A DNA stretch of 64,000 nucleotides. Source: Methanoculleus sp. GTDB taxonomy: Archaea > Halobacteriota > Methanomicrobia > Methanomicrobiales > Methanoculleaceae. Below the pieces are notes generated by a model, which searched no databases, was not told the origin of the DNA, and saw only the letters and a list, made by a program, of their open reading frames with translations. Location: positions 62,001 through 126,000 of the forward strand of contig NZ_JAJGBK010000020.1 in the NCBI RefSeq assembly GCF_020696975.1. The letters run 5' to 3'. This document shows, piece by piece, positions 23,367-59,339 of this stretch. The position numbers and the translations under genes are program-made. Within the stretch, counting starts at the first letter, position 1. The number at the start of each line of letters is the position of its first letter.

Positions 23367-24044
23367 ATGGACGTTCTGTTAATCCTTATCGACTGGTTTC
23401 CATACCTTCTCTCAGGCATTGCCACAACTCTCGGTCTTGTTCTGAGTGCTCTGGGCCTCGGCCTCCTTCTCGGTCTGCCCATGGCGCTCGGCCAGGTGTA
23501 CGGCTCCCGGCCGGTGCGCTGGGTCATTGGAATATACGTCTGGTTCTTCAGGGGTCTTCCCATCCTTGTTCTGCTCTTCCTCTTCTGGTTCGGCATATTT
23601 CCCATGCTCGGGCTCGGTGCTCTCCCGGCATTCGCGGTCGGGGCTGTGGTACTGGGCCTCCGCGGGGCGGCATACCAGTCCCAGATCTTCAGGGGAGCCG
23701 TCCAGTCGATCGGGGAAGGCCAGATGATAGCGGCGCGCTCCCTCGGGATGAGCAGGCTCACCGCCATCCGTTCTGTCATTCTCCCGCAGGCGATGCGGAT
23801 CGCTCTTCCGGGGTGGTCGAACGAGTACCCCAACATCCTGACCGATTCAGCGGTCTGCTACGCGATTGGGGTCGCTGAACTGCTCACCATTACGTCGCGG
23901 ATGGTCACGCAGACCCATATTACGATGCCGATCTACCTCGCTGCGGCGGGGATCTTCATCATCTTGAACTACGGGGGCCTCAAAGTCCTGCACGGGCTGG
24001 AGAAGAGGATAGCAATCCCGGGATTTGGATCCGGAGCAGTATAA
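23367..24044 (+). CDS. Polar amino-acid ABC transporter permease 1 (HisM/GlnP-like)
   Basis: The 225-residue protein has about five helices and the EAA-like cytoplasmic loop of PAAT permeases ([29 protein letters not shown]), which contacts the ATPase. First gene of a three-gene operon with the ATPase (1 nt gap) and a second permease. AGGGAT lies upstream of the ATG. The roughly 290 bp before it hold no gene. The import substrate is probably a polar amino acid; which one cannot be told. Confidence 0.92.
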
Positions 24045-24045
24045 C

Positions 24046-24798
24046 ATGAACAACGATATTGTGCTGAGAGTCGAGGACATACACAAGTCCTTCGGGGATA
24101 ACGAGGTGTTGCGTGGGGTCTCGTTTGACGTCCGGAGAGGTGAGACGAAGGTCTTCATCGGCCCCTCGGGGACAGGGAAGAGCACGCTTCTCCGGTGCAT
24201 CAACCAGTTGACGCCGCCTGACCGGGGAAGGGTCTGGCTTGACGGAGAGGAGGTCACCAACTCGGGAGCCCGGATCAACTACTTCCGACAGAAGATCGGG
24301 ATGGTCTTTCAGAACTTCTTCCTCTTTGACCACCTCACCGCGTTAAAGAACGTCGAACTGGCGCTCTTGAAGGTCAGAGGCATGGGAAAAGCGGAGGCGC
24401 GCGAAAAAGCGCTCAACGAACTCCGGCAGGTGGGGATGGAAGACTGGGCCGACCATTACCCGGCCGAGCTCTCGGGCGGCCAGGCCCAGCGGGTATCCAT
24501 CGCCCGGGCGCTCGCCATGGACCCGGACGTCATCCTCTTTGACGAACCGACGTCTGCGCTCGACCCCGAGCTGACCCGGGAGGTGTTGGAAGTCATGAAG
24601 AAACTGGCCGGGGAGGGGATGACCATGCTCGTCGTCACCCACGAGATGGGGTTTGCCTGCTCGGTTGCAAACGAAGTGCTCTTCATGGAGAATGGTGTGG
24701 TGGCCGAACAGGGGACGCCTGACCAACTCCTGCATGACCCGCAGTACACCCGGATGAAGGACTTCATCGGCCGGATCGACTCACGCCTGGGAGACTGA
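24046..24798 (+). CDS. Polar amino-acid ABC transporter ATP-binding protein (GlnQ-like)
   Basis: The 250-residue ATPase has Walker [11 protein letters not shown]-loop [10 protein letters not shown], signature [12 protein letters not shown], Walker [13 protein letters not shown] and His in VTHEMGFA. The start ATG at 24046 has GGAG upstream inside the first permease gene end. It lies between two permease genes of the same family, so the transporter core is a heterodimeric permease with this ATPase. It energises uptake in the cytoplasm. Confidence 0.95.
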
Positions 24799-24806
24799 GG
24801 AGCGGT

Positions 24807-25493
24807 ATGGATCTAGCGGCCTTTACGTTCGACATCCTCCTCCCGGCGCTGATGCAGGGGCTGATCATAACCCTGCAGTTGATTGCATGCTCCGCTCCGT
24901 TCGGCCTCGCGTTCGGAATCGCCATTGCGGTGGGAAGACAGTACGGCGGCGGTGCCATATCATGGCTCTGTAAGACGTTCGTCTTTCTCATCAAGGGCAC
25001 GCCGCTACTCCTCCTCCTCTTCATTCTCTACTTCGGGTTCCCGGCGATCGGGATAACCTTCACGGCGTTCACGGCATCGGTGGTCGGGTTCATCCTCTGT
25101 AACGCGGCGTACAACGCTGAGTACATCCGGGGTGCGCTCATATCGATCAAGGATGGTCAGATGATCGCCGCCCAGGCGCTCGGGATGACCCGGTGGCAGG
25201 CGATCCGGCACGTGGTCCTGCCCCAGGCGCTCCGCCGCGCGATCCCGGGACTCTCGAACGAGTTCATCTACCTGATCAAGTACTCGTCGCTCGCCTACAT
25301 GATCACGGTGATCGAGCTCTCCGGGGCGGGGAAACTGGTGGCAACGAAGTACTTCCTTTATACGGAGTCGTTTGCAGCCGTCGGCATCGTCTATCTCGTG
25401 CTGGTGACGATCACGACTGTCGCGGTCAATATCCTGGAGAAGCGTGTGGCCATCCCCGGAACGACCCGGGGCACCACCGCGGCTCAGTTGTAA
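24807..25493 (+). CDS. Polar amino-acid ABC transporter permease 2
   Basis: The 228-residue membrane protein has the EAA-type loop KDGQMIAAQALGMTRWQAIRHVVLPQ and about five helices, paralogous to the permease at 23367. GGAG 5 nt before the ATG is a good ribosome-binding site, 8 nt after the ATPase stop. The stop is followed by a short T-run (25494-25498). The cognate binding protein gene is not in this operon but lies 1.4 kb away on the opposite strand. Confidence 0.92.
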   Translation: MDLAAFTFDILLPALMQGLIITLQLIACSAPFGLAFGIAIAVGRQYGGGAISWLCKTFVFLIKGTPLLLLLFILYFGFPAIGITFTAFTASVVGFILCNAAYNAEYIRGALISIKDGQMIAAQALGMTRWQAIRHVVLPQALRRAIPGLSNEFIYLIKYSSLAYMITVIELSGAGKLVATKYFLYTESFAAVGIVYLVLVTITTVAVNILEKRVAIPGTTRGTTAAQL

Positions 25494-25725: not shown

Positions 25726-26850
25726 CTATCGCCGGTGCGAATGCCGGTGATGGATATCGGGCTGGTGCGGGTGCTCGTGGAAGATCTCGGTATGGGCGTG
25801 CATGTGAGAGTGCTCGCCGCTCGCCGAGAACGGCGGGTCGCCGGCCGCGTGGGTGTGGTCGTGGTGAAGGTCGTCGTGGCGGTGCCTGTGCTCGTGGACG
25901 ATTTTTGGGTGCCGGTGGGGGTGGGTATGCTCCTCGGAGATCAGCAGCCACGCCCCGAGTGCCATGATGGGTAACGCGACGTAGAACGCGCTCGTCGGGA
26001 GTTCGGCAAAGAGCAGGAGCGAGAAGAAGACGCCGAAGAACGGGGAGACGGCAAGGAGCGAGCCTGCCCGTGCGGCGCCGATACCCCGGAGGGCGAGGAG
26101 GAAGAGGATGCTTGTCAGGCCGCCGTAGCAGAGGAACCCGACGATCATAGCGGCAGCGGCCGTGACCGGTGCCGGGAGAGCCTCGCCGGCGGCGAGCGCG
26201 GCGAGGAACGTGACGGTGCCGGAGCCGATCCCCTTTACGGAGATGACGATAAGGGGGTCTTTCGCCGAGAGCCGCTGCCCGAGGTTGTTGTCGACGGCCC
26301 AGAAGAGGCAGGTGAGCAGGATGCCGAGCGCCGGGAGCGAGAGGCCGAGACCGGCTGCCGGGTCATAGGTGAGGATGATGCATGAGGCGGTGATACACCC
26401 GAGCGCGACCCAGACCCGACGGCTCACCCACTCGCCGACGACCGCTGCGGCGATCAGCGTCGTCGCTACGGCCTCGAAGTTCAGGAGGAGGGCCGCCGTC
26501 GCTGCCGCCGTCCCCGGGAGGCTGAAGATCAGGGTGACCGGCGCGAGGACCCCGCCAAAGAGGGTCACGCCGATGAGCCAGGGGATGTCATTCCTTCCTG
26601 GCGGCGCCTCCATGTTGCTCCGCCGGGTGCCTGACGCGGTCCCGAAGAGGGAGAAGAGCAGGGCGCCCGAACCGCTCCCGAGCGAGACCAGCGCGGCGAG
26701 CGCGAGCGGCCCGGCACCATCGATGAGGAGTTTGGTGAACGGGGCGCTCCCGCCGATGAGGATTGCCGTTAAGAGCGCACAGATGACGGGTGCCCGGTAG
26801 CGGGCAAGAGTGGCTCCGTGGTCTATGCCGGCGGGTTTACGGGGATACAG
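25726..26850 (-). CDS. EamA/DMT-family transporter with histidine-rich tail; no standard start codon
   Basis: The 374-residue reading has ten predicted helices in two EamA halves (about 20-290) and a C-terminal cytosolic tail of about 70 residues with 23 histidines in HxH and HH patterns (EEHTHPHRHP, HHDHTH, HHRHSHRR). The first ATG (26613) lies after the first two helices, which continue in frame upstream (RYRAPVICALLTAILIGGSA). No ATG, GTG or TTG occurs in that upstream part. A CTG at 26848-26850 has GGAGG 8 nt before it and is my proposed start. A base error or an N-terminally decayed gene are alternatives. The tail suggests metal binding or metal sensing. The gene lies 58 nt after the binding-protein gene, same strand. 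Confidence 0.75.
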   Translation of the reverse strand: MYPRKPAGIDHGATLARYRAPVICALLTAILIGGSAPFTKLLIDGAGPLALAALVSLGSGSGALLFSLFGTASGTRRSNMEAPPGRNDIPWLIGVTLFGGVLAPVTLIFSLPGTAAATAALLLNFEAVATTLIAAAVVGEWVSRRVWVALGCITASCIILTYDPAAGLGLSLPALGILLTCLFWAVDNNLGQRLSAKDPLIVISVKGIGSGTVTFLAALAAGEALPAPVTAAAAMIVGFLCYGGLTSILFLLALRGIGAARAGSLLAVSPFFGVFFSLLLFAELPTSAFYVALPIMALGAWLLISEEHTHPHRHPKIVHEHRHRHDDLHHDHTHAAGDPPFSASGEHSHMHAHTEIFHEHPHQPDIHHRHSHRR

Positions 26851-26908
26851 AAGAAGGGCCTCCGGATGAATTGAAAGTTTGAAAAATTGGGGGATAGATC
26901 GTCCCCGA

Positions 26909-27703
26909 TCAGCTCAGGTTGTGCTTCACTTTGAGTTCTTCCCAGTACGGGTCGGCCTGCAGTTCCGCGATCCCCTCGTTCATGAGCGCAAGGAGTGCGG
27001 TATCCTCCTTCCGGATGGCGACACCGAACTGCTCCTGCTCCTGCGTCTCGACGGACCCGATGGTCTTCAGCGCCTTGCCCCTGATGATGTCCTGCAGGGA
27101 GACGTCATCGTACATGACTGCGTCGACCCTGCCGATCTCGAGGTCGCTGACGGCAGCCACTGTGTCGGGGTAGTATTTCAGGTTGTCTTTGGGCAACTTC
27201 CCGGTCTCGATCAGGTTCTCCTCGATCCAGATGGCGGCAGTGCATCCCCGCTGCGCTCCGATGACCACCTTTCCGGCAAGGACATCATCAAGCGTCACGT
27301 TTGAGTCCTCGCGGGCCGCGACGTCCTGGTTGATTGACCAGTAGGGGTTGGTGAAGTTGACCGCTTCCTGCCGCTCAGGGGTGATCGACATCCCGGCATA
27401 GACCATATCGATCTTCCCTGCCTGGAGGGTGGGGATGATGGCGTCCCAGTCTACTGCCTGGAATGTTACTTTGATACCCTTCTTCTCGGCAATCCACTTC
27501 ATGGAGTCGACATCAAATCCCTGGGCGTTGCCGTCCTTATCGACGTAACTGTAAGGCGGGTATGCACCGTCGATCCCGACGATGTAGGAATCTTTCAATT
27601 CTGCTCCACCGGTCTGTTCGGTTGTGCCGGTGCACCCTGCACCTGCGACTGCCAGCACTGCAACCATACAGGCGAGCAACGTAAGAATGCCCTGCGTTCT
27701 CAT
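26909..27703 (-). CDS. Polar amino-acid ABC transporter substrate-binding lipoprotein
   Basis: The 264-residue protein has a lipoprotein signal (helix ending VAGAGC, Cys at 23) and the family 3 solute-binding fold: YIVGIDGAYPPYSYVDKDG, GFDVDSMKWIA, DMVYAGMSITPER and a conserved lobe hinge. It captures amino acids outside the membrane for the permease-ATPase pair at 23367-25493, which is on the other strand. It is transcribed away from the DUF2795 gene and is followed by the EamA gene after 58 nt. Confidence 0.95.
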   Translation of the reverse strand: MRTQGILTLLACMVAVLAVAGAGCTGTTEQTGGAELKDSYIVGIDGAYPPYSYVDKDGNAQGFDVDSMKWIAEKKGIKVTFQAVDWDAIIPTLQAGKIDMVYAGMSITPERQEAVNFTNPYWSINQDVAAREDSNVTLDDVLAGKVVIGAQRGCTAAIWIEENLIETGKLPKDNLKYYPDTVAAVSDLEIGRVDAVMYDDVSLQDIIRGKALKTIGSVETQEQEQFGVAIRKEDTALLALMNEGIAELQADPYWEELKVKHNLS

Positions 27704-43859: not shown

Positions 43860-44699
43860 ATGGTTAGCGAGGGTGCAACTCTTCGTAAATTACAGATTCT
43901 CGAATTGAAGATATTACTGGAGTTTAAGCGTATTTGTGAAAGACACAATCTCCAATACTTCTTGATCGGGGGTACACTTCTTGGCGCTGTTCGCCACCGG
44001 GGATTTGTTCCTTGGGACGATGATATTGATGTCGGGATGATGAGATCCGAGTATATCAAGTTCCTTAACGTCTGCAAAGACGAGTTGTCGCAGGAATATA
44101 CCCTTCAAACATTCGAGACTGACAGGACATATGCTCACCCCTTTGCTAAAATTCGCCTGGTTGGTACCGAGTATCCTGAACCGAAGTACAAGGCCGTATC
44201 TGATCAGAGAGGCATCTGGATGGATATATTTCCATTTGATTCCACTCCAAGCAACCGTCTTCTAAGAGATATTCACCGGTTCAGGCTTATGACAATCATT
44301 CATATGTGCGAGATTAAGTACAATTATACGGTAGAACCTTCTACGCTGCTAAGAAGAGTGCTCTATTTGGGTTTGCGATGGTTTTCAAGACCATTCAGCA
44401 GAACCTGGCTTGAGAATCGAAGAGAGTACCTGTTTCAGAAGTACAACAGAGAAAATCCGGGCTCGTATATCTACAGTACGCTCTGTTGTTTCCCATCGGA
44501 AGCATTCGAACAATTTGTGGAGCTAGAGTTTGAGGGTATCAAATTTCCAGTCCCGGCAGGCTACACTGACTGTCTTACGTGCGCCTTTGGGGACTATATG
44601 AGTATACCTCCCAAAAACAAACGTATCAGACACACGCCGCATGCGCCGAATTTTGGAAAATATGCTGACATCTGTTCTGTTGACGAGATACGGGACTAA
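43860..44699 (+). CDS. licD: LicD-family nucleotidyltransferase-like protein
   Basis: The 279-residue protein has the LicD signature: LGAVRHRGFVPWDDDIDVGM near 45-65 with the metal-binding DDD/DID and the FLIGGTLLG strand. In known bacterial systems LicD family proteins transfer phosphocholine or similar phosphoryl groups onto glycans or teichoic acids. The archaeal role is likely decoration of a surface polysaccharide, inferred from the glycosylation context. First gene of the island; the A+T-rich codon use differs from the flanking core genes. Leaderless start supported by the TATA box. Confidence 0.85.
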   Translation: MVSEGATLRKLQILELKILLEFKRICERHNLQYFLIGGTLLGAVRHRGFVPWDDDIDVGMMRSEYIKFLNVCKDELSQEYTLQTFETDRTYAHPFAKIRLVGTEYPEPKYKAVSDQRGIWMDIFPFDSTPSNRLLRDIHRFRLMTIIHMCEIKYNYTVEPSTLLRRVLYLGLRWFSRPFSRTWLENRREYLFQKYNRENPGSYIYSTLCCFPSEAFEQFVELEFEGIKFPVPAGYTDCLTCAFGDYMSIPPKNKRIRHTPHAPNFGKYADICSVDEIRD

Positions 44700-44771
44700 A
44701 TATAATTTAGCGAGATTGATTATAACGTATGCACGCTTGATTGAACCTATGGAATCCTCTAACTGATGCGT

Positions 44772-45428
44772 CTATGTGATGGTATCCACGTATTTTCTCA
44801 TTATTCGGATGATCTCCTTCTGCACTGTCTCAGATCTGGAGTTCGCGTCTATTATCGGGATGTCTAATTGAGTGGCAAGTCTCCTGTATGCTACTACTTT
44901 TTCGGCTATCTTCTTATCATAATATACATCGCTCCTTCTCTTCCGTAACTGCTCCGGATCCGCGATTAGCAAGATAACAACTAATTTCGATGGCACTAAC
45001 CGCAAAAACAATTTTCCTATCTTTGTAGAGATTATCTCTTTGTGATTAATCGATAGACCCAGATCAATAAGGGTATCAAAAACGAACCGGTCACAGATTA
45101 TATTCTGACCAAGGATGTACCTGGGAATGTAGTATTTAAGTGTTAAATGTATTACGGTATCCAGCCATAACGATAGAGGATAAAAAAAACACAGGAATTT
45201 AGACTCCTCGAAATGGTGATAACTAACTTTTTCCCCATTCGGGGGCACTTCTACACTGGTGTACCCCATTGCCCTTGCATAAAGGAGAAGAGGAATCGAT
45301 AGAAGATAACGAGAACCCAACCAGCAATACTTGTATTCTTGATCTTGCTGCCCGAATTTTGCAATGAGTTTTGTAATATGTGATGTCTTACCTGCTCCAT
45401 CAGGTCCAATTATACAGATATTGTGCAT
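44772..45428 (-). CDS. Thymidylate-kinase-like P-loop protein
   Basis: The 218-residue protein has Walker A GPDGAGKTS at the N-terminus, the DR motif CDRFVFDTLIDLG near 110 (base and substrate binding in thymidylate kinases) and a lid-like RKRRSDVYYDKK. It is longer in the middle than typical Tmk, so it may phosphorylate a different nucleotide or sugar. Similar proteins occur in polysaccharide loci, consistent with the flanking LicD and flippase genes, but function is inferred. Convergent with LicD. Confidence 0.65.
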   Translation of the reverse strand: MHNICIIGPDGAGKTSHITKLIAKFGQQDQEYKYCWLGSRYLLSIPLLLYARAMGYTSVEVPPNGEKVSYHHFEESKFLCFFYPLSLWLDTVIHLTLKYYIPRYILGQNIICDRFVFDTLIDLGLSINHKEIISTKIGKLFLRLVPSKLVVILLIADPEQLRKRRSDVYYDKKIAEKVVAYRRLATQLDIPIIDANSRSETVQKEIIRIMRKYVDTIT

Positions 45429-45826
45429 TTTATCCCCTTTGACGTGCTTATCAATCGTATGACCTCTAGATTGTTTGCGGGTATTAAATGCCTTGCTATA
45501 GAATCATACATTCCTGCCGGGGTAAACGCTGCCGGGGTAAACGGATTTATGAGGGCTGCCAAGATTTATTGACCTCTGCTGAGGTTGTGGGTTTTGATCT
45601 GAAAGGGAAGCAGATTCTATCAAAAACAGTTAACCATTCCTATTTTTTTGTGAATCGTACATCGGAGGGTAAATTTGGCTGACGCTTTAAACCTGGAATA
45701 AAGTGCAGTTTTCAAGGAGGCTATACTGCTCCGATCGCTTCAGTGCCAGGGAATGGCTCTTCAGATCGCTCTCTCATTTAATGGAGGCACCGAAATCGTT
45801 AATACATCTATCGGGCATATCAGGGC
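45429..45826. other. Intergenic region with a 15-bp tandem repeat
   Basis: No convincing gene is seen; a short plus-strand frame at 45488-45682 has no recognisable feature. The 15-bp unit CTGCCGGGGTAAACG occurs twice head to tail at 45514-45543. The last bases (AGGGC before ATG at 45827) could bind the ribosome weakly. Confidence 0.4.
45514..45543 (+). repeat. Two perfect copies of a 15-bp tandem repeat
   Basis: CTGCCGGGGTAAACG is repeated exactly, copies at 45514-45528 and 45529-45543. It could be a slippage duplication or a protein-binding site. Confidence 0.7.
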
Positions 45827-47644
45827 ATGGTCGGGATAAATGCTCTCATCTCCTCTGGAATGTCAGATCACCGCATAAAATTTTCTGATATTCAAAATAC
45901 GATGTTGCATTACCCTAAATACCAGGCAAATACGCTGTTCGAAGATGACTGCCTTCTTATTGGGTCGACAGCATACGATCAGTATCCCATAACCTGTTTT
46001 GAAAGCCCCGGATCTTTCATTCTCCTTGAAGGTATAATATACAACATCGATGATGCGACAATTAAAAACAATCTTTTTGCCATCGCAGATCTTGTTCCGG
46101 AAAGAGCAACGGTTTCAGAGACGATAGCCAGATTTTTAACTCATGCCGATGGCGAGTTCATTGTCCTGATCTACGACAAACCGACAAAGCTTCTTTGTGT
46201 CTTCAATGATGCGCTGGGAAGGTTGCCGTTCTTCTGGTACAGGGATGATGCGGTTCTGGTATTCTCTCGCGAGATGAAATTTATGTACCCCTTTGTGAGA
46301 CCAATAGCATTCAACAGGCTGGCGCTCATGGAGTATCTTCTTTATGAATTCCCCCTCGGTGAGAGGACACTTATTGAGGGCGTTGAAAGGCTGCTGCCGG
46401 CTACCGTAATGATGTATAGCGGATTGAGTCAGACTCTCTTAAAGGAACAGGTTCTACCTCTCACGTTTGAATTTGAGAAAGAAGACCGGAAGATATCCAA
46501 GGAAAATATCAAAGACCTCAAGCGATCTTTTCTCGCGGGTCTCCGGAGCAGGGTCTCAAAACTGGGTCCCAGAAGGTCCCTTATCTCGCTGAGCGGGGGC
46601 CTGGACTCGAGGGCGACGCTGGCAGGATTGATTGCGCAGGGAGTTAAACCCCGGGGGATAACCTATGATACGGCCCCGGAGGATGCCGGGGAACTGGGAT
46701 ACACTCAAAAAATTGCAGAAACCTTCGGTGTTTCGCTCACTCATTTCGCTCCCTCAAAGGATATGGATTATGAGGAGTATCTCCGTTATGTCGCACTGGT
46801 CGATGCAGGCCAATCTATAAACCTGGCAAACGTCGTGAACATCGAAGAACAGATCATGCTTCACGAGGGAAGCGATATTGTTCATTACACCGGACTGTAT
46901 GGTGGGGAGTTATGCAGATATCTGAATGTGACGTCCGGCTTTGGCTCAGACGATGATCTGGCACAATTTCTCCTCACCACCCCGGATCAGTATGGGTATG
47001 CTCACCAAAAAGTCTGCGCGATGCTGCAGGCTTCAAAAGATGAGATCCAGGAACATATCCGGGAGCATATCGCTGCTTACCCGGAGAAGGATCTCTATGC
47101 CAAGTATCTCCATTTCAAGTTTGAGAAAGACTATAAGTGGGCTGGTCTGGGTGAGGATAGAAACCGATTTTTCTTCTGGACAGTTACACCGTTTTACTCC
47201 AGAGACTTTTTCTGGACAGCGTATACGATAGATGAGCGTAAAAAGGACACTCTCTTCTTCAGAGACTTTCTTTACTCGCTTGACCCCAGAACCTGCGCTG
47301 TGGGCTACTACAATACCGGAATGAGTCTTAAGAACCCTCTAACATTGTATATCTACAGGTTTGCAGAGAAGGGAGTGCGGACCCCATGGATAAGACAACT
47401 TGGATGGCAGGCATTGCATTTTAAAGAAAAATTCGGCGTTTCAAAGAGATTCAACCCGAAAAAGGAGGAAATTCGAGCCTTTGCGTTGAACCTGCTTGAG
47501 AGATCGAGCCTGATCCAGAGATACTTCTCTCTTGCCGCAACCCGGAATGTGATTCGTACCGAGGAGGAACTGGACAAACTGGAGAGAATACTGACCCTCT
47601 TTATATATATGGATATGATCGATCGCGGCAAGCCGGATTTCTAA
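45827..47644 (+). CDS. Asparagine-synthetase-like amidotransferase lacking the glutaminase cysteine
   Basis: The 605-residue protein has a glutamine-amidotransferase-like N-terminal part (1-200, GSFILLEGIIYNI, NDALGRLPFFWYRD) and a synthetase PP-loop LISLSGGLDSRATLAG near 250 with the family fold to about 480. In asparagine synthetases Cys2 is exposed as the glutaminase nucleophile; here the start reads MVGINAL, with Val in that position, so glutamine hydrolysis is unlikely and free ammonia may be used. Related proteins amidate cofactors, peptides or sugars. It is probably part of the surface-glycan island, though a distinct role is possible. Confidence 0.75.
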   Translation: MVGINALISSGMSDHRIKFSDIQNTMLHYPKYQANTLFEDDCLLIGSTAYDQYPITCFESPGSFILLEGIIYNIDDATIKNNLFAIADLVPERATVSETIARFLTHADGEFIVLIYDKPTKLLCVFNDALGRLPFFWYRDDAVLVFSREMKFMYPFVRPIAFNRLALMEYLLYEFPLGERTLIEGVERLLPATVMMYSGLSQTLLKEQVLPLTFEFEKEDRKISKENIKDLKRSFLAGLRSRVSKLGPRRSLISLSGGLDSRATLAGLIAQGVKPRGITYDTAPEDAGELGYTQKIAETFGVSLTHFAPSKDMDYEEYLRYVALVDAGQSINLANVVNIEEQIMLHEGSDIVHYTGLYGGELCRYLNVTSGFGSDDDLAQFLLTTPDQYGYAHQKVCAMLQASKDEIQEHIREHIAAYPEKDLYAKYLHFKFEKDYKWAGLGEDRNRFFFWTVTPFYSRDFFWTAYTIDERKKDTLFFRDFLYSLDPRTCAVGYYNTGMSLKNPLTLYIYRFAEKGVRTPWIRQLGWQALHFKEKFGVSKRFNPKKEEIRAFALNLLERSSLIQRYFSLAATRNVIRTEEELDKLERILTLFIYMDMIDRGKPDF

Positions 47645-48423
47645 ATATCTTCGTATCGTTCTCTGCAATCCGTTTAATGGGAAATCCACTTTCCGGGCCG
47701 CTTTGAAACGGAAAGCCGGAAACCTATTGGGCTTGCCCGCCATCGTTCATCCCGGAACTTTTGTTCAGGACTACTTCGCAAATGAACTCGTTACAGATTC
47801 AGAGCGCCTGAGCGCCCTGCTTCCCCGGAATCCTGCAGAAGATGCTGATGTGTTCAAACCTGGATGGTCCAGCGATGGGTTTGACAGATTCGTTGGAGGT
47901 TATACTGAAAATTGGATTGCTGCAGCATACTGGTTACCATGCGGTCGAAACGAAGACAGAGGTTATGATCTGGGCAAAGTAACCCCCGGTGAGACTGCCT
48001 GACATAGCAATGTATAGAAACATTTATACATGCTGATGCGATGTGTCTTGTATCTCACCTGAAGCGATTACCATGTGCATACTCTGTTAGTCCGCATCTT
48101 TCAGAGACGAGGGGTCTCGTATCGTTGTCCCGGGCAATTGCATCGGGTCCTACGAGTGACTGCCTGAAAATGCGCCGTTGCTGTAACTGCAGGGTGATCG
48201 TTGCTTGATGCTGGCGTGCAGGGGCTCCTTGCCGTGTGAGTGTGGGTACTCCCTGGCAGGTGATATCGGAGCGTCAGAAGATATGGCGGGGATAAGTGTA
48301 GATCCACAAAACGAGAGAAAACAAGCCTTAAATGTAACGCATAGTCACAGGTGAATCCTCCAGTCGCTCTGTATCTTTTTGATCAGCATACGAATCCGCT
48401 AACACGTAAATGAGGTTGAAATC
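47645..48423. other. Intergenic region, no convincing gene
   Basis: About 780 bp lie between the amidotransferase-like and flippase genes. A 99-codon plus-strand frame (47703-48002, TTG start) contains GWSSDGFDRFVGGYTENW but matches no family I recognise; it may be a decayed gene. At 48011-48030 the inverted repeat TGTATAgaaacattTATACA could be a TATA or operator element. Confidence 0.35.
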
Positions 48424-49737
48424 TTGAAGATCCCGGTGAGCAAGGCAATAATAGATGTACAATGGGCATTCATCAGTATTGCCACGGCATCACTGGCTCA
48501 CTTCATCCTCAGGATCGTCCTCGGCAGGGAACTCGGGCCAGAAGGGCTTGGGGTGTACACCCTTGCCTTCACTATCTATCTCTTTGGGATGCAGTTTGCC
48601 GCGTTCGGGATTGGAACTGCGTTGACAAAATACGTTGCGGAGTTCCTCGATAATCACGTCGCTATAAGAAATTACGTTTCTTCAGGGATGGTTAGTTCGA
48701 TCATTGTAGGCGCCCTGATGGGAGTTGCACTCTACTTTCTGGCTCCCTCTATTGCAGTATCTTTTTTCCGGATCCCTGAACTGGAGCCGTTGATCCAGCT
48801 GACCGCCCTCTGCTACCCCTTCATCGCCATCCAGAAGGCAGTGCTTGGGACACTGAATGGGTTCCGTAAAATGCATCTTTATGCGTTTCTGAACATCATT
48901 CAGAATGTCACCGTTGTCGTAGCATCTATTACTCTGGTGCTACTGGCAGGGATGGGTGTGATGGGGGCGGTGATCGGGTTTGTTGGCCCGACCATACTCA
49001 TCGGCAGCGTATGTCCTGTTCTGATCCGTGACTGGATCCAGCTCGATGTATCTTTGAGCAATATCGCCGCCCTTCGTGCAACGACAGTTTTTGGGTTTTA
49101 TGTCATGCTCGGAGATTCGATATCGTTTCTTAGCGGTCAGATTGACAGCATCATGATCGGGTACTATCTCAACCCGACTGAGGTAGGGATCTATGCTGTC
49201 GCTTTCCTCTTCACACAGATACTCACGCTCATACCTACGGCTGTTCAGGGAGTGACAGCACCGGTGACGGCGACGCTGTATGGGAAAAGGGATATCGAAG
49301 GTATAAGAAGGCTCTTTTACTCAACATTGAAGAAGAGTCTTCTCATTTCAGCAGGAATTGCAACGCTCATTGCTGTTTTTGGTCAATATGTCATTGTTCT
49401 TCTCTTTACCGAAGAGTATCTTATGTCGTATACCCCGCTGCTGATATTGCTGCCGGGGTATGCCGTCAATGCGTCTTTTGGTGCGGTTGGTGCCACACTG
49501 GCAAACATCGGAAAGGTGCATATTCCCTTCCGGATCAGCGCAGTCTCCGGGGCATTGAAGATCGTCCTGAACATCCTGCTCATCCCTCATCTCGGGATAA
49601 ACGGAGCTGCTCTGACAACAGGGGTAGCCGCGGTAATAAGTTTCGGGATAAAGGTAGCAGTCGTTCACCACTATATCGGGGGTCATTGCAGTGGTTTAGA
49701 TCAACGAGAACACGCATCCGATGAGTTAACTCCTTAA
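48424..49737 (+). CDS. Oligosaccharide flippase (Wzx/MATE-like)
   Basis: The 437-residue membrane protein has about 14 helices and begins with the typical Wzx-like segment (AHFILRIVLGRELGPEGLGVYTLAFTIY). Such proteins move lipid-linked glycans across the membrane. The start is TTG at 48424, preceded by GAGGT (7 nt spacer); no in-frame ATG exists at the N-terminus. A hairpin terminator follows (49796-49823). The context of glycosyltransferases and sugar-modifying genes supports the role. Confidence 0.88.
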   Translation: MKIPVSKAIIDVQWAFISIATASLAHFILRIVLGRELGPEGLGVYTLAFTIYLFGMQFAAFGIGTALTKYVAEFLDNHVAIRNYVSSGMVSSIIVGALMGVALYFLAPSIAVSFFRIPELEPLIQLTALCYPFIAIQKAVLGTLNGFRKMHLYAFLNIIQNVTVVVASITLVLLAGMGVMGAVIGFVGPTILIGSVCPVLIRDWIQLDVSLSNIAALRATTVFGFYVMLGDSISFLSGQIDSIMIGYYLNPTEVGIYAVAFLFTQILTLIPTAVQGVTAPVTATLYGKRDIEGIRRLFYSTLKKSLLISAGIATLIAVFGQYVIVLLFTEEYLMSYTPLLILLPGYAVNASFGAVGATLANIGKVHIPFRISAVSGALKIVLNILLIPHLGINGAALTTGVAAVISFGIKVAVVHHYIGGHCSGLDQREHASDELTP

Positions 49738-50063
49738 TGTGTGCTTACCGGCAAGTACCTCCGGACAGGTGCCTGGGAGACATGAGGTCTTCTTTGCGGG
49801 GCGGTATGGCCCTGCTCTTTTTTAGGGTGATTCATCCAGCATACCTGCCATACTTACGAATATGAAGGAATCTTTGATACAGAGGCCGACCCAGCATCCT
49901 CTGGAGTGGGCCGTACCATACCTTTTTAGCGCTCACCCATCCCCTGTACCTTCCCCGTGAGGCAATAAATGACACTTTGCGCTCTCAAGGCCCGGGAGAT
50001 GAGATGCACCGATGGTTTGCAGAGCGTGTTGAATACTGGACGATTTTGCCTTCTGGATAGCCC
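49738..50063. other. Intergenic region with terminator
   Basis: No gene is seen in these 326 bp. It separates the plus-strand flippase from the minus-strand polysaccharide operon, so the genes converge here. The hairpin and T-run at 49796-49823 are the only feature. Confidence 0.5.
49796..49823 (+). terminator. Hairpin plus T-run terminator
   Basis: GCGGGGC (49796-49802) pairs with GCCCTGC (49809-49815), allowing one G-T pair, with loop GGTATG, then TC and six T (49818-49823). It resembles an intrinsic terminator, 59 nt after the flippase stop. Confidence 0.55.
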
Positions 50064-51824
50064 TCACGTCGAATAAATCTCAATATCGCGATTGTCATAG
50101 ACTTTTGTACGAATTGACCGGTCGCTTCTGAACCAGGCATAATCTCCTGCAGTATACCGGCCGACTTCCCTGTATCCGGGAACTTCCTGGTACAAAAGTT
50201 CATCGAGATTCAGCAGAATGACATAACCCTGCTGATCAGGCTCTAGATTTATATCGGCAAATGTTCTATGAGAGGAGTTGTAACCGAAGTGATCGGGTAT
50301 CTGGATCTCATTGTCGATTCCCCCATCATCAAATAGATCGTGGAACCTCTGGATCTGACTCACCGGGACAATCGTATTCTCACCAGTCCTTGCTTCATAA
50401 TACCACTCAATTCCTTCAACTTCGTTATGCGTCAGAGCGGCATTTGTCACGAAGATATTTGGTGAATCAAACGTCCCGAAAAGACCAAGGCTCCACATAC
50501 CTGTCAAAATGATGAGTACAAGTGCGGTTTGCCGGTTGAAAAACTTCGGCGCTGCAAATACTACAGAGAGGGAGAGCACAAACAACGGTACCTGGGCATA
50601 AAGCATGAAGTTTAAATTGGTCAGGCGGTCGGGTTGATGGGAAAACATAGGGTTCAGGAAGATGATTGCCTCAATGATCAGGAGTGCGATATAGAAGGCT
50701 GAAAAGAAGTACATGCGGTTCTTTACTGCTTGAGTGATCTTATCCTGCTTAAGGCGGATCAGAATTAGCGCGATGCCAATGATGATGAAGGGGATTAGAT
50801 ATCGGCCGTAATAGACGAATAGCAATTTCATCATGCTGGGAAGATCAATATTGATACGTGCTATCTTCTCTGTCGTCATAAGAAGGCTGGGTTCGGTTAT
50901 CTTCAGAAGATAACTCTGAAAGTTTATCCTGAGACTGCCCATGAGGGCGTCACAGTAGACAAACCATGCAAGAAACCCCATGATGGAGATTGTGAGAGGA
51001 TGTGCGGCACGCCAATAACGTTCGTGAATAAACCGGTTCAGTAGCCCTCCGGACAGTATTAAGGAGAGAAGGAGGGCAAACACGAAGAGAACGATGAACG
51101 GATGCATGAAAGGGACAAGAATTGTCGGGAGAATAAGCAGAATGGCATTCGAGAAACCGGCTTTATTGATGTAACGACTCAGAATGAAGATATATAGGGG
51201 CATATACGCGAAAAACAGGGCATGAGGGACGTTGAGAAAGTTGTAGGGGCCCAGGTAAAGAATGAATGAGGAGAGGATAGCGATATTCATCAAGTTCTTT
51301 CCCTTCAAGAAGAAACGGCAACAGAGATACAGTCCACCGACGAGGATGAATGAAAAGATAACCGGCATCACGAAGGCTGCACCGCTCACCGGGAGCCCCG
51401 ACATCATTGAGAGAGCAGCACCAAGGATGAGGCTTCCCGGGTAGATGTTCCACTCATCATTGGTGAAACCTGTCTTGCTGATGTGGAGATACTCACCAAT
51501 ATACGACATGTCGTCTGCCCTGCCCATGGAGTAGTAGCCGAGCATGTAGGGAATCAGCAGGATGACTGCATGATTGAGAATAAGTAACAGAACTCCGAGT
51601 TTTTTCGCACGTTCCCGTCCCGAAAGGAGAGCGATAGAACTGATAAGGTAGCAGAGTATTGCGGCACTGTAAAATGATAGTGGGAGAACCGAGTAGATGT
51701 CCACAGCATAGCCTTGAGGCTGATGCGAGTACAGAATAAGGAGGTTATAGAGTATGAGGATGAACCCGAGAGTCAGGAGAAACTTTGGACATTTTCCATT
51801 TAAGAAAGGGTCTGATATCTTCAT
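50064..51824 (-). CDS. Large polytopic membrane protein, probable polysaccharide-locus protein
   Basis: The 586-residue protein has about 12-13 hydrophobic helices over residues 15-450, then a soluble C-terminal domain (about 455-586) outside the membrane. Motifs such as MGRADDMSYIGEY in the first large loop (acidic, near residue 103) resemble GT-C-type glycosyltransferases or polymerases, but I cannot assign a family. It lies last in the minus-strand run, 165 nt after the GT4 gene stop, so it is likely part of the same locus. Role inferred from context only. Confidence 0.55.
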   Translation of the reverse strand: MKISDPFLNGKCPKFLLTLGFILILYNLLILYSHQPQGYAVDIYSVLPLSFYSAAILCYLISSIALLSGRERAKKLGVLLLILNHAVILLIPYMLGYYSMGRADDMSYIGEYLHISKTGFTNDEWNIYPGSLILGAALSMMSGLPVSGAAFVMPVIFSFILVGGLYLCCRFFLKGKNLMNIAILSSFILYLGPYNFLNVPHALFFAYMPLYIFILSRYINKAGFSNAILLILPTILVPFMHPFIVLFVFALLLSLILSGGLLNRFIHERYWRAAHPLTISIMGFLAWFVYCDALMGSLRINFQSYLLKITEPSLLMTTEKIARINIDLPSMMKLLFVYYGRYLIPFIIIGIALILIRLKQDKITQAVKNRMYFFSAFYIALLIIEAIIFLNPMFSHQPDRLTNLNFMLYAQVPLFVLSLSVVFAAPKFFNRQTALVLIILTGMWSLGLFGTFDSPNIFVTNAALTHNEVEGIEWYYEARTGENTIVPVSQIQRFHDLFDDGGIDNEIQIPDHFGYNSSHRTFADINLEPDQQGYVILLNLDELLYQEVPGYREVGRYTAGDYAWFRSDRSIRTKVYDNRDIEIYST

Positions 51825-51989
51825 CGGAACCTGGTCTTCACTTCAAGCACGCAGCACAACCTGTTAGCGGGAATGCTTGTTCCTCCTCTTTGCAGATCTT
51901 TCGGGATTGCCGGTGGCAGGCGAACGAGAGCATGAGTTTGCTCGTAGCAGAGCCGTTCTGGCTCTCTCCTGGGAGATCTCATCCAGTTC

Positions 51990-53174
51990 TCATCCTAAAA
52001 ACCGGGCATAGACGCCCATCGTCTCCTTTGCAATATTTGCCCATGTATACCGCTCCGCATACGCGAGGATTGCCTCCCGATCCCACTCCCGGTCCAGCGC
52101 GGTGAGGATCTTCTCTGCCAGATCATCAGGGTCGGCGGGCTCGACCAGCAGACCGTACTCGCCAGAGGTGATCACCTCCGGCACTCCGCCGACCCTGGTC
52201 CCCACAAAAGGCTTTCCGCATCCAAGGGCCTCGAACATGACCGTCGGGTTGCCTTCGTTGAGGCTCGGCAGGACAAAGAAGTCGCTGGCGTTCATCCAGA
52301 GGGTCAACTGATCCCCGGGGACAGACCCTAGCAGTTGCACATTCTCCTCCAGATGCGATCGGATGATCTGCTTTTGCAGACCTCTCCACTCCGGACCTGC
52401 CCCACCGATATAACAGAATGCATCATCCCGTTGGCTGCAGACCTGTTCCATCGCGTTGATTAAGTAATTGAAGCCCTTTCGCTTGATCAACCCTCCCAGT
52501 GTGAAGATGATCTTTCTCTCCTCCGGGAGGTTGAGCCGTTCCCGTGCGATGGCTGTCTCGATAGGATGGAAGGCTGGAGAGAATCCGTTGGGAATCGCAC
52601 GGACACATCTGTTGTAACGTTGTAGCACTGGGACGTCCTTCTTGTTCACCCTGATGAGGGCATCGGCACCAGACCAGGCCGTATTGATAAGAGGGTGATC
52701 CATGGTGACCTCCTGTTCAAACCAATCACCATTCTCGTGAATGGTGGTGACTACCGGCTTCCCGTATTTCTCCTTCAGTCTAACCCCTATATAGCCGGAT
52801 GGCCAGGTGAAATGAGCATGAATAAGATCAAAGTGGAGACGGTGTTCCTTGATGGTTTGTTCCACCACCTGTAACCGGTTGTCGATCAGGATCTTACTCA
52901 GCCAGACGATTGGGATATAGATGCTTCGGGGATAATAGACTTCTACGTTGTCGTAAGAGTAGTCTTTACAGATCTTATCTTTCCCAAAACGACCATAGGA
53001 TTGAAAGATTGGAGAAATGATCACGACCTTCTTGAAATAGTGACGCAACTCGGCAACAGGGTTTTTTACAAACGTATCCCCGGCAAATGAATCATCCTGA
53101 TCTGGATAGGACGAAGTGAGAAGCAGGAGAGATTTATCCTTTAGAACCTCCAGCCGATCCGGTTTTGCGTACAT
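51990..53174 (-). CDS. Glycosyltransferase family 4 protein
   Basis: The 394-residue GT-B enzyme has the GT4 donor-binding region TLGGLIKRKGFNYLINAM, LWMNASDFFVLPSLNEGNPTV with the E-x7-E motif (EGNPTVMFE) and TRVGGVPEVI. It transfers a sugar from a nucleotide donor to a lipid-linked or growing glycan on the cytosolic side. The gene is 110 nt after the stop of the amidotransferase paralogue 1 and precedes the large membrane protein. No signal peptide. Confidence 0.93.
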   Translation of the reverse strand: MYAKPDRLEVLKDKSLLLLTSSYPDQDDSFAGDTFVKNPVAELRHYFKKVVIISPIFQSYGRFGKDKICKDYSYDNVEVYYPRSIYIPIVWLSKILIDNRLQVVEQTIKEHRLHFDLIHAHFTWPSGYIGVRLKEKYGKPVVTTIHENGDWFEQEVTMDHPLINTAWSGADALIRVNKKDVPVLQRYNRCVRAIPNGFSPAFHPIETAIARERLNLPEERKIIFTLGGLIKRKGFNYLINAMEQVCSQRDDAFCYIGGAGPEWRGLQKQIIRSHLEENVQLLGSVPGDQLTLWMNASDFFVLPSLNEGNPTVMFEALGCGKPFVGTRVGGVPEVITSGEYGLLVEPADPDDLAEKILTALDREWDREAILAYAERYTWANIAKETMGVYARFLG

Positions 53175-53284
53175 TATCTCAATCTCCAGTGTCTGTCAAT
53201 CCCCTCATGAGTCGGAACAACGATTTACTCTCCCTCACTACAAGTATTTAAATGAGGTGGTGAACGGAACACGCAACATGACTA

Positions 53285-54427
53285 TTATTCCCTGTTATAA
53301 CTCCCGTAGATCTTAGTGGGAAACAGATGCAGTCTGTATGCGATGGTTATCAGATGCTGTAGTCTACGGACGAGAGGATAATACGAATCGAATTCGGACT
53401 GTGCTCTCGGCTTAGAATTGATAATATTCTCGAATTCTTCAAGGCTGATGCCGAACCTGTTGCGGAGATACAGCATATCTGCCCTAACTGTATCATCATT
53501 GCATGCCGGCAGTTCAAGTTTCGCCAGAGCTTCGTCCCGGGTCATCTGGTTGGATCGAACGAACGCCGAATAATGAATTTTCCTTTTATCTATGCCAAAC
53601 TTCTTCGGCAGCAAATATCCCTGAACAAACCGGGTATATATGGACTCATGGTGACCTGTACCGTAATCGATCCATCCCAGTTCTTTTTCGAGAAGTCTCT
53701 TTACATCCTCCTTAACATACGGCAGATAATACAAAGGCTTAATCTCTCGTATCCCCTTAAAAGCGAAGTAATACAGATAATCTTTAAGCAGCACATTCGG
53801 GAACGTCTCAAGAGTTACGTGGCCAAATCTATCATGAACGGATTTTAAGTATTTTCCATCGCCATAACTCCATCCCGGAGGCATTTTTCCTTCGGTTCTA
53901 AACGAACTGCCGACGAGAATGTACTTTATCCCGAACTGCGCAGCGCATTTATACAGCGATGCCGTTATGGCCAGATCTGGAGGCACTTCCAGATCCGGAA
54001 CAGATGCTTTAAAGAAAGCTAATTCTAAATCAACGATCTCTTTCTCATCTAATTTTACAGTATACAGATCAACATTCAACCTGTTTACCGCATTTTGAAT
54101 ATTTTGGATGGATATCTCCGTGTCGCATCCATCATCTACATGCAGCACCAGCGGGTTAAGTCCGTATTTACATGCAATGTATAGAGTATAGATGCTATCT
54201 GTTCCTCCGCTAACCCCTATAAGGCAGTCATATTTTGCGGTTCTTTGACTCCGTTTTATACTGTCAACAATCTGCTGGAATCTCTGCTGTGTAGCCTCAC
54301 TTAAGGGGAACTCCTGTTCGATGAGATCGTAGTTCTTGCACAGATTACATACTCCATCCGTATCGAAAGATATTCCCGGGATACTGTCGTCACAGACGCA
54401 TCTTGTACAAACTCGTAGTTCGGTCAT
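53285..54427 (-). CDS. N-acetyl-sugar amidotransferase, paralogue 1 (WbpG/PseA-like)
   Basis: The 380-residue protein has an N-terminal Cys cluster (CTRCVCDD, CNLCKNYD), PP-loop GVSGGTDSIYTLY near 70, and the family signature KKFGIDKRKIHYSAFVRS near 275. WbpG/PseA-type enzymes convert an acetamido group of a nucleotide sugar to acetamidino, using ammonia supplied by a HisH-like partner in Pseudomonas. No HisH or HisF homologue is near. It is paralogous to the gene at 58109. The start ATG (54427) overlaps the stop of the 106-residue ORF by 4 nt (ATGA). Part of a seven-gene overlapping operon. Confidence 0.87.
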   Translation of the reverse strand: MTELRVCTRCVCDDSIPGISFDTDGVCNLCKNYDLIEQEFPLSEATQQRFQQIVDSIKRSQRTAKYDCLIGVSGGTDSIYTLYIACKYGLNPLVLHVDDGCDTEISIQNIQNAVNRLNVDLYTVKLDEKEIVDLELAFFKASVPDLEVPPDLAITASLYKCAAQFGIKYILVGSSFRTEGKMPPGWSYGDGKYLKSVHDRFGHVTLETFPNVLLKDYLYYFAFKGIREIKPLYYLPYVKEDVKRLLEKELGWIDYGTGHHESIYTRFVQGYLLPKKFGIDKRKIHYSAFVRSNQMTRDEALAKLELPACNDDTVRADMLYLRNRFGISLEEFENIINSKPRAQSEFDSYYPLVRRLQHLITIAYRLHLFPTKIYGSYNRE

Positions 54428-54744
54428 AATAACCCCCAATGCATATCAGTGTCGGAAGACCTCGCTTTCACTCCAACCCATGCGGGTCCTGGCAGTTTTA
54501 GCATCAAGAACCTTACAAAGGCCGTCAATGTTTTTTTGTGAGGAAGATCGATGATGGCATCCGTCACGGCGTAGAGATGCCTGCCCCCCCTCCGAAAACC
54601 ACCTCCGTCGAGATTGGCGGCTTGCACTTTCATAAATCCATTGATCTCCCCGGACGTATCAGCAGCGTCACAGATCGTAAAAACCAGACTACGTGAGTGT
54701 GTGGCGCCCGGACCGGGCATAGGGCCTGATTGAACCTCTATCAT
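54424..54744 (-). CDS. Unrecognised 106-residue protein coupled on both sides
   Basis: No family is recognised. The evidence for a gene is positional: its ATG (54744) overlaps the TGA of the PHP gene (ATGA at 54741-54744), and its TGA overlaps the ATG of the amidotransferase (54424-54427). Removing it would leave a 313-nt gap in an otherwise gap-free operon. The sequence has a Gly-rich central part (DGGGFRRGGRHLY) and no signal or membrane helix. The weak protein character leaves open a degraded or fast-evolving gene. Confidence 0.45.
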   Translation of the reverse strand: MIEVQSGPMPGPGATHSRSLVFTICDAADTSGEINGFMKVQAANLDGGGFRRGGRHLYAVTDAIIDLPHKKTLTAFVRFLMLKLPGPAWVGVKARSSDTDMHWGLL

Positions 54745-55352
54745 CCTAAATCCTCAACACAATGGCAGTCACTGCCCCTGACAAAGTTTACCTGCTGGCC
54801 TCTCGCCAGATCGATCCACGCATCCGGAGGTGCGTTGTACCTTTTATTTAGTTCGATCAGGACCTCGCTGTTGCTGAGCGCTTTAAATATCAGACATAAC
54901 TCTCCTTCCTGTAAATGTAACCCGGCTCGTTTCAGGAATATACCGGGATGCGCCCAGGTATTGATACGGGGGTTTTTCAGGACATGGTAGAATGCATCGA
55001 GATAGACATCTATATCCTGTGGAAATGAATGGAAAGCAAATATCGGGTAATCGACCTGTTCCAGGACATTATCTTCAACATCAAGAGTTCCGTCAGGGAG
55101 GACCTTCGCTTCGCACCCGGAAAGGATGAACAAATCGTACTGCTCTCGCGCTCTATCGATATCTTCCAGATAAGCCTGAAAATCATAACCCGGATTCCGG
55201 CGGATATGTTCAGTGAACGCAACCAGAGGAATGCCGAGTTCTGCCGCTCTTCTGCAGTAATCTGCGACTGAACCTTTACCATCGGTATAATCTGTATGAA
55301 TATGCCATTCGCCGGACAACAGATACTGTGAGTATTTCTGCCAGACTTTCAT
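54741..55352 (-). CDS. PHP-domain metal-dependent phosphoesterase-like protein
   Basis: The 203-residue protein has the PHP metal motifs GEWHIHTDYTDG (HxH), VAFTEHIRRN, SGCEAKVLPDG, FAFHSFP, WAHPG and GSDCHC. Histidinol-phosphatase-like PHP enzymes hydrolyse phosphate esters with metal ions. The start ATG at 55352 overlaps the stop of the ATP-grasp gene by 4 nt; the frame is open farther upstream but only as antisense/overlap. Within the operon it could remove a phosphate from a sugar intermediate; this is inference. Confidence 0.85.
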   Translation of the reverse strand: MKVWQKYSQYLLSGEWHIHTDYTDGKGSVADYCRRAAELGIPLVAFTEHIRRNPGYDFQAYLEDIDRAREQYDLFILSGCEAKVLPDGTLDVEDNVLEQVDYPIFAFHSFPQDIDVYLDAFYHVLKNPRINTWAHPGIFLKRAGLHLQEGELCLIFKALSNSEVLIELNKRYNAPPDAWIDLARGQQVNFVRGSDCHCVEDLG

Positions 55353-56407
55353 AAAAATCCCACAGCAGTATTGTTGTTCTCGAGTCCTATGCCCCCCCAA
55401 TAACGAAGGATCTTCGTCCCCCATTTAATCTGGAAACCAGGCACATCTTCGTTCAAAGCACGCTTAACAGCAGCATAAATGATATTGGCACCTGCAAACG
55501 TCGAAAGAACCATTGTGCCCTGAACTCTCGGGTTGGACTCCAACAATTTTGGGGTATTATGTTCGTCCATTTTGAACTGGAAACCGAACGCGTAGTTTAG
55601 TCCGGTTGCTTCACTAAGTTTTCGCGCATACGTGATGAGAGCCTCGTGATACTCGACCGTGCCGTGGAAGGTGATGCCTGATTGAATGAGGTCCCGCTTC
55701 CTTGGAACAATTGTATATTCCGGGGTTTTCAAGACATCGACAGTGTATTCTGCATTGGGGAGATACTCCATTACTATCAGAGGCGGAAAGTCGGATCCTA
55801 AAATCTCGTACAGACTCTTCATCTTCACGAACAACGACGTCGGTTTTTCCAAATAGAACATCTCTTTAAGATCACGGGATTCGTCGACTATACGTACGCC
55901 TCTCATCCCGTTGGAGAGCGGTGGTTTGACAACCACCGGTTTATCCGGCCATCCCAATTCCTTTGCAAAATCAGTCAGGGCCTCAAAATTGTTTACAAGA
56001 CCGTATTTCGGAGTAGGCACACCTATCTGTTCTGCCAGCCTCATCAGTCTGTATTTGTCATTTGCGACAGAGATTGCAGATGCATCGGAGACAGCAACAG
56101 ATGTTCCAATGTCGGAGAACGAAGATCTATTCTCTGCTAAAACGGGTAGTTCAAGGGTGTTTTGAGGGACTACGACGTCTACGCCCTCCTTTTGACAGAT
56201 TGAGAGGAGTAGGTCCAGATAACCCGTGTCAGTTGGTCTTGGAATGCGGTAAAAACTGTCGCATAGGTATTTTCCAACGACCTCTTGCTTTATGTCTGTT
56301 CCGATTACCCTTACGTCTCTATTCTCGAAGTTTCCTTTTAGGGAATAGAGTGTACCTTTTATGCCGGGAGCCCCTGCGCCAGTCACAAGAACAGTCAAAC
56401 CATCCAT
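55349..56407 (-). CDS. ATP-grasp ligase (CarB/PylC-like)
   Basis: The 352-residue protein has an N-terminal Rossmann-like preATP domain (VLVTGAGAPGIKGTLYSL), the ATP-grasp core with KPVVVKPPLSNGMRGVRIV near 170 and the Mg-binding LLESNPRVQGT near 295. ATP-grasp enzymes join a carboxylate to an amine or thiol using ATP. Next to a deacetylase and two amidotransferases, a job in acylating an amino sugar or amino-acid-sugar ligation is plausible. The start overlaps the PIG-L gene by 13 bp; its stop overlaps the PHP start by 4 nt. Confidence 0.87.
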   Translation of the reverse strand: MDGLTVLVTGAGAPGIKGTLYSLKGNFENRDVRVIGTDIKQEVVGKYLCDSFYRIPRPTDTGYLDLLLSICQKEGVDVVVPQNTLELPVLAENRSSFSDIGTSVAVSDASAISVANDKYRLMRLAEQIGVPTPKYGLVNNFEALTDFAKELGWPDKPVVVKPPLSNGMRGVRIVDESRDLKEMFYLEKPTSLFVKMKSLYEILGSDFPPLIVMEYLPNAEYTVDVLKTPEYTIVPRKRDLIQSGITFHGTVEYHEALITYARKLSEATGLNYAFGFQFKMDEHNTPKLLESNPRVQGTMVLSTFAGANIIYAAVKRALNEDVPGFQIKWGTKILRYWGGIGLENNNTAVGFL

Positions 56408-57024: not shown

Positions 57025-57033
57025 AACGACCTC

Positions 57034-58107: not shown

Positions 58108-58108
58108 A

Positions 58109-59257: not shown

Positions 59258-59339
59258 TCTGGATCACTGTGATAGATGGGTTTACCCGGCCATTTCAGGG
59301 TAGAGATGCTTAAAGTGGGGACAAGAAGACCAAATCTCA

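Follow-up and report, generated by a model that had tools for sequence, protein, structure and literature searches.

The locus described here raises the question of where translation of an archaeal exporter gene begins when its reading frame offers no canonical start codon ahead of the first two transmembrane helices. The window, by which we mean the whole 64,000-nucleotide stretch analysed (positions 62,001 to 126,000 of contig NZ_JAJGBK010000020.1), comes from an archaeon whose closest named relatives in our searches belong to Methanoculleus. On its minus strand, a frame is open between a TGA at 26916 and a TAG at 25726–25728. The first in-frame ATG lies at 26613, and the 100 codons preceding it contain no ATG, GTG or TTG. 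An earlier note on this DNA had placed an exporter gene at 25726–26850, which is correct, and had proposed that it starts at a CTG with GGAGG 8 nt before it. Both elements are present on the minus strand, the CTG at 26848–26850 and the GGAGG Shine–Dalgarno sequence at 26859–26863, separated by an 8-nt spacer. It is also true of the window that no ATG, GTG or TTG stands in frame before the first two helices. The note had called the ATG at 26613 the only one in the gene; helices 1 and 2 do precede it, but it is the first ATG, with more Met codons downstream.

Read from CTG to TAG (25726–26850, minus strand), the gene encodes a protein of 374 residues. EamA (PF00892) was the sole Pfam family above its cut-off, scoring 67.8 bits against a cut-off of 28.2 in two stretches that correspond to the two EamA repeats, and orthologues within the genus share about 74–84% identity. 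The AlphaFold model (mean pLDDT 79.3, pTM 0.75) matched solved structures of DMT transporters in a Foldseek search, among them 9i20, 5i20 (YddG), 5y78 and 7paf, and the matches place the protein in the DMT fold. By both repeats and fold, the exporter is an EamA/DMT transporter. Transmembrane helices 1 and 2 (residues 19–72, 26635–26796, minus strand) lie 5′ of the first ATG (26611–26613), which encodes residue 80; they are modelled with pLDDT mostly of 84–96 and are strongly conserved. The same genome carries one further EamA protein (C24).

Comparison within the genus provided the main evidence on the start. Of 35 Methanoculleus genomes, 24 contain an orthologue (25 copies, with two in G026) and 10 have no match, while the sole homologue in G007 is distant and groups outside the genus clade. 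The 5′ end is complete in 24 of the 25 copies, the copy of G018 (L023/L133) being cut by a contig end. The CTG is in the exporter frame in 22 of these 24, and a TTG replaces it at the same place in one (G001, L017); ATG occupies the equivalent position in none of the genus copies read. The GGAGG, invariant in 22 copies and in all 24 rows of alignment A2, keeps its 8-nt spacing in every complete copy. A separate pattern scan found the start site in 20 of the 35 genomes, and for the orthologues of G025 and G022, in which the second or fourth codon is altered, the start region was read directly. The earlier note had named a sequencing error and orthologues with ATG at the equivalent position as observations that would overturn its proposal. 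The number of genomes rules out a sequencing error behind the CTG, and no orthologue carries ATG at the equivalent position, where one has TTG, so the CTG, proposed as a credible start, is strongly supported.

A canonical alternative is scarce in these copies. In 19 of the 24, no ATG, GTG or TTG occurs from the upstream stop to helix 1; the remaining five are L008, L017 (through its start-site TTG), L020, L024 and L118. L008 and L020 have an in-frame TTG upstream, without an evident Shine–Dalgarno sequence. An ATG at the position common outside the genus is found in L020, L118 and the 5′-truncated L023/L133, and L024 has one two codons earlier. Because some copies thus carry an ATG near that position, the CTG is not the sole possible start in every Methanoculleus species. 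In L118 (G023:C312:25083-26045), GGAGG-N8-CTG is retained with the CTG out of the exporter frame; this is a draft genome in which the gene reaches the contig end, and an assembly error is possible. Three near-cognate codons of the window, ATC at 26895, ATT at 26871 and ATA at 26826, were considered as starts and rejected, since the start-like codon is not conserved (the ATA is GTA in several copies). Judged from these sequence comparisons, a CUG initiation codon, with UUG as the one variant, is very probably conserved in this archaeal genus.

The coding signal changes at the same place. Codon periodicity begins at the CTG: across codons 2–9, mean pairwise diversity at codon positions 1, 2 and 3 was 0.14, 0.19 and 0.34, and upstream of the GGAGG no frame showed such a low-low-high pattern. 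Several indels just 5′ of the start are not multiples of three; those downstream are. Of the Leu codons in the exporter genes of the genus, 21% are CTG, and among the other columns that are Leu in all genus sequences, 1 of 30 is restricted to CTG or TTG. Retention of the start CTG therefore exceeds chance, because the third base of an ordinary Leu codon should vary. That the CTG is instead a Leu codon in a longer frame, entered by frameshifting or read-through from the binding-protein gene upstream, is extremely improbable: the two genes are closely spaced on the same strand, and the frame is open further upstream in L010 and L024, but the TGA at 26916 limits the frame of the window, in-frame stops between the binding-protein stop and the CTG of L006, L018 and L022 exclude an earlier start or translation entering from upstream in these copies, upstream indels break the frame, and the GGAGG is invariant at start-site spacing.

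Selection on the encoded protein bears on a start further downstream. The ratio of nonsynonymous to synonymous rates (N/S), a simple count of single-base codon differences among genus copies, was 0.473 for residues 2–19, 0.205 for residues 20–79, 0.167 for residues 80–305 and 0.100 for the His-rich tail, which is the most constrained part of the gene. These ratios rule out that the exporter is a pseudogene. Purifying selection acts on helices 1 and 2 as it does elsewhere in the gene, since residues 20–79 differ little from residues 80–305 (0.205 versus 0.167). Translation could in principle start at the ATG at 26613 or at another internal canonical codon, yielding a protein of about eight helices with the upstream frame untranslated or used otherwise. 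That ATG is the first canonical start in the window, and a gene finder that accepts just ATG, GTG and TTG must take it or a later one. However, the first two helices are not only selected like the remainder but fold with the core, and in five copies (L012, L014, L015, L016 and L022) the first ATG, GTG or TTG comes only at codons 113–115, inside the next helix. An internal start is thus very unlikely.

Homologues outside the genus indicate how the CTG start may have arisen. Their usual ATG start lies 13 codons downstream of the CTG position; in many, it stands exactly 19 codons before a GG(S/T)AP motif, where the window has a Thr codon (26809–26811). The exporters of the clade carry a specific 13-residue extension (26812–26850, minus strand), which ends before this codon. 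Among 98 homologous loci outside the clade with a readable start region (our own count of rows), 96 offer one or more canonical codons after the upstream stop and ahead of helix 1. One of the other two (L077) is cut by a contig end. The second, L112 (Ketobacter sp. contig NZ_RCHN01000023.1), is bacterial and has no ATG, GTG or TTG in this interval, which may reflect another non-canonical start, of separate origin, or an error in the sequence. The genus forms a clade with 100/100 support (29 rows in the tree), with the CTG throughout, including the first branch drawn (L019). On the simplest reading, the clade gained the upstream CTG start and most members then lost the downstream ATG; regain of the downstream ATG in some lines is equally possible.

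A genome-wide habit of starting at CTG does not account for the finding. The window and 20 further stretches (372,609 bases), together 436,609 bases or about 19% of the 2.29-Mb genome with 361 gene-like ORFs, were scanned on the basis of codon usage and stop-to-stop ORFs of at least 100 codons. Just two ORFs combined a coding signal upstream of all canonical starts with a Shine–Dalgarno-preceded CTG, namely the exporter and an ORF elsewhere in the same genome (C19; L139 4865-5563). The latter is a degraded-looking frame resembling a nucleotide-sugar dehydrogenase, with its CTG directly after a stop, and is probably a broken gene. Other high scorers lacked a Shine–Dalgarno-preceded CTG start and read like antisense shadows of real genes. 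The exporter is the only intact gene of this kind in the 437-kb sample, and its CTG start looks exceptional for the genome, as far as a sample of about a fifth can tell.

The C-terminal His-rich tail (residues 306–374, 25729–25935, minus strand) points to the function of the protein. As the earlier note had stated, the tail has 23 His residues, counted over the last 80 residues. The note had also called such a tail unusual for EamA transporters. His-rich tails are indeed rare among EamA proteins at large, but here the tail marks a widespread subfamily that includes CnrT, and it is a subfamily feature rather than a local oddity. In a single comparison that included the tail, the exporter and CnrT of Cupriavidus metallidurans were identical in 126 of 303 columns (42%, E 9e-60), which supports the suggested link of the tail to metal. 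Relatives of the exporter occur in 64 plasmid records, CnrT among them, and heavy-metal RND genes lie near the homologue in five of six plasmid regions opened, plasmids being a biased sample. Among 80 public loci, 73 encode 10 or more His within the final 80 residues, a count biased by one search pattern drawn from the tail and therefore not used as evidence; LLNxE was found in 64 and DNN in 71, several of the misses being frames cut at a stop by the script. In L024 (G014) and L040, the frame stops shortly after the last helix and its final 80 residues contain 2 His; the tail is either missing or frame-shifted. A search of titles in the open-access literature for an EamA subfamily with a histidine-rich tail found none.

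CnrT is the nearest characterized likeness. PMC11647595 lists it alongside DmeF and CnrCBA among exporters of Ni(II), and PMC7019866 assigns it to the DMT family. CnrT of C. metallidurans CH34 (pMOL28) shares with the exporter the EamA/DMT architecture, the His-rich tail and the motifs LLLN-x-E and W-x-V-D-N-N. It differs in being annotated with an ATG start, and in standing at the end of the cnrYXHCBAT operon, whereas the exporter lies beside an amino-acid importer without cnrCBA. No cnr- or ncc-type nickel-resistance operon was met around the exporter, whose neighbours are the importer and unrelated genes, and no metal-resistance gene was noted beside the archaeal gene; location in a cnr operon is a trait of the operon rather than of the transporter. 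NreB is another nickel exporter of the inner membrane and has a His-rich end. The inner-membrane nickel exporter RcnA has a cytoplasmic His-rich loop comparable to the tail of the exporter, as described in an excerpt of PMC11247825. RcnA and NreB both belong to transporter families other than EamA. Homology makes Ni/Co export the best-supported function, and CnrT-like metal export is, in our judgement, the probable activity of the protein.

The genomic neighbourhood raises the possibility of another substrate. Upstream, with 58 bases in between, lies a gene on the same strand (26909–27703) for an amino-acid ABC transporter substrate-binding protein (NCBIfam TIGR01096, E 3e-45, below the curated cut-off of that model). 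On the plus strand, three ORFs at 23367–24044, 24025–24798 and 24807–25493 (23367–25493 overall), named permease, ATPase and permease from reading their translations, converge on the exporter and probably belong to the amino-acid importer of the binding protein. The importer set stands beside the exporter in L134, L135, L037, L039 and L053; L036 and L040 end before it would be reached. The adjacency to a binding-protein gene, on which the earlier note had remarked, is conserved within the genus and recurs in a minority of other genera: outside the clade, a binding-protein gene lies directly upstream in 3 of 13 loci (L042, L044 and L053) and, by coordinates, in G043 (L030), and in all four the exporter has an ATG in its start region. 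In Methanoculleus chikugoensis L21-II-0 (L039), the block that follows the exporter has the opposite orientation to its counterparts in the window, L134, L135 and L037; it comprises phosphofructokinase-like, aldolase-like and importer genes, names taken from reading the window. Elsewhere in the window, positions 44000–60000 have a GC content of 42–50%, against roughly 60% or above across most of the left part, and the genes there look like ones for sugar modification and surface polysaccharides; the region may be an acquired island.

Export of metabolites is common among DMT proteins. The exporter might likewise release a metabolite, an amino acid or, as the earlier note had proposed, a metal–amino-acid complex, balancing the importer, while its His tail just senses or buffers metal. 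The adjacency kept in the genus, in 3 of the 13 outside loci and in G043 is in keeping with this. Against it, CnrT exports nickel and bears the same tail, and the binding-protein neighbour is absent from 10 of the 13 outside loci. Such a role is unlikely, though it deserves to be taken seriously. Importer and exporter may be functionally linked, for example through uptake of a metal chelate combined with export of surplus metal.

The leader between the two genes contains a further element. A terminator-like stem-loop (26890–26906, minus strand), followed by a T run at 26880–26889, lies between the binding-protein stop and the GGAGG. In an alignment of 24 sequences (23 distinct), 92.8% of cells were paired and three of the six pairs showed changes on both sides (4 cells); the covariation score was reached by 1 of 500 shuffles, a control that ignores relatedness. 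A consensus terminator scan recovered the stem-loop, but with two found against 1.8 expected by chance, the result was not significant. Most likely, the stem-loop terminates the binding-protein transcript, because a binding-protein gene without the exporter in G002 (L158, G002:C44:97000-100400) keeps both hairpin and T run after it. Past the hairpin, this locus has a different reading frame that resembles a membrane protein. If the stem-loop acts as this terminator, the exporter would therefore depend on read-through or on its own promoter, and no promoter of its own was found. Several single-sequence folds paired the Shine–Dalgarno sequence with the spacer; this pairing is absent in L017 and L022, so it is not universal.

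Taken together, we consider it likely, from comparison of sequences, that a terminator-like hairpin is followed here by the gene for a Ni/Co exporter resembling CnrT, and that this gene uses a conserved CUG start that is probably weak. The protein, an EamA/DMT transporter with 10 helices and of the same type as CnrT, would most likely export Ni(II), Co(II) or a related cation, and its cytosolic His-rich tail would bind metal. In Methanoculleus, the start would have shifted upstream, with ribosomes binding the GGAGG and initiating at the CUG eight bases on, which the initiator Met-tRNA would read as Met by near-cognate pairing. Since initiation at CUG is weak and the terminator-like hairpin of the binding-protein gene stands in front, synthesis of the exporter would then probably be held at a low, fixed level.

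Whether this weakness has a function is less certain. The CTG start may be real and yet a neutral relic, a reading to which we give serious weight, somewhat short of even. The TTG of L017 and the downstream ATG codons in four copies are what a relic might show. Arguing against it, a single substitution, of A, G or T for the C, would create a commoner start, yet only one such change is seen in 24 complete copies. The figures in an excerpt of Belinky et al. 2017 (PMC5622118), which reports selection for AUG and two AUG-to-CUG switches among 61,358 ancestral AUG starts, also make long retention of an unfavoured CUG unexpected. CUG starts are seldom annotated in prokaryotes: an analysis of model bacterial genomes, cited in PMC11983097, counted 20 in nearly 85,000 genes.

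An excerpt of the same article (PMC11983097) describes a precedent in the RepFIB rep gene, which has a CTG start with a good ribosome-binding site and was misannotated at a downstream canonical codon; use of the start was confirmed by mutation, and it is thought to set low expression. RepFIB rep is a bacterial plasmid replication gene with experimental proof, whereas the exporter is an archaeal chromosomal transporter known from comparison only. The sigR gene of Streptomyces, in an excerpt of PMC5472188, offers a second parallel, a non-canonical start with a regulatory effect, repressed through IF3; it differs in that its codon is GTC rather than CTG, the initiation factor is bacterial and the product is a sigma factor, not a transporter. 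Because of the likeness to RepFIB rep and the rarity of switches to CUG, we infer by analogy that selection may have kept the exporter start weak for a low dose, which is plausible without being the safer bet. Going further, selection might maintain the CUG genus-wide as a means of setting the dose of a metal exporter or of regulating it, an archaeal counterpart to RepFIB rep or sigR, with archaeal initiation factors discriminating against it and output following initiation stringency or, via the leader, metal state. This extension is speculative and rather unlikely.

In titles and abstract openings of the open-access literature, we found no report of a conserved CUG start in Archaea. A CUG, once UUG, kept in an archaeal genus would be a natural, testable case of near-cognate initiation in this domain. 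The locus also illustrates how comparison of relatives can reveal starts beyond the reach of gene finders; annotations of these genomes probably omit the first two helices of the exporter. Methanogens need much nickel, and a CnrT-like exporter held at limited dose would, if true, be a new piece of methanogen nickel homeostasis.
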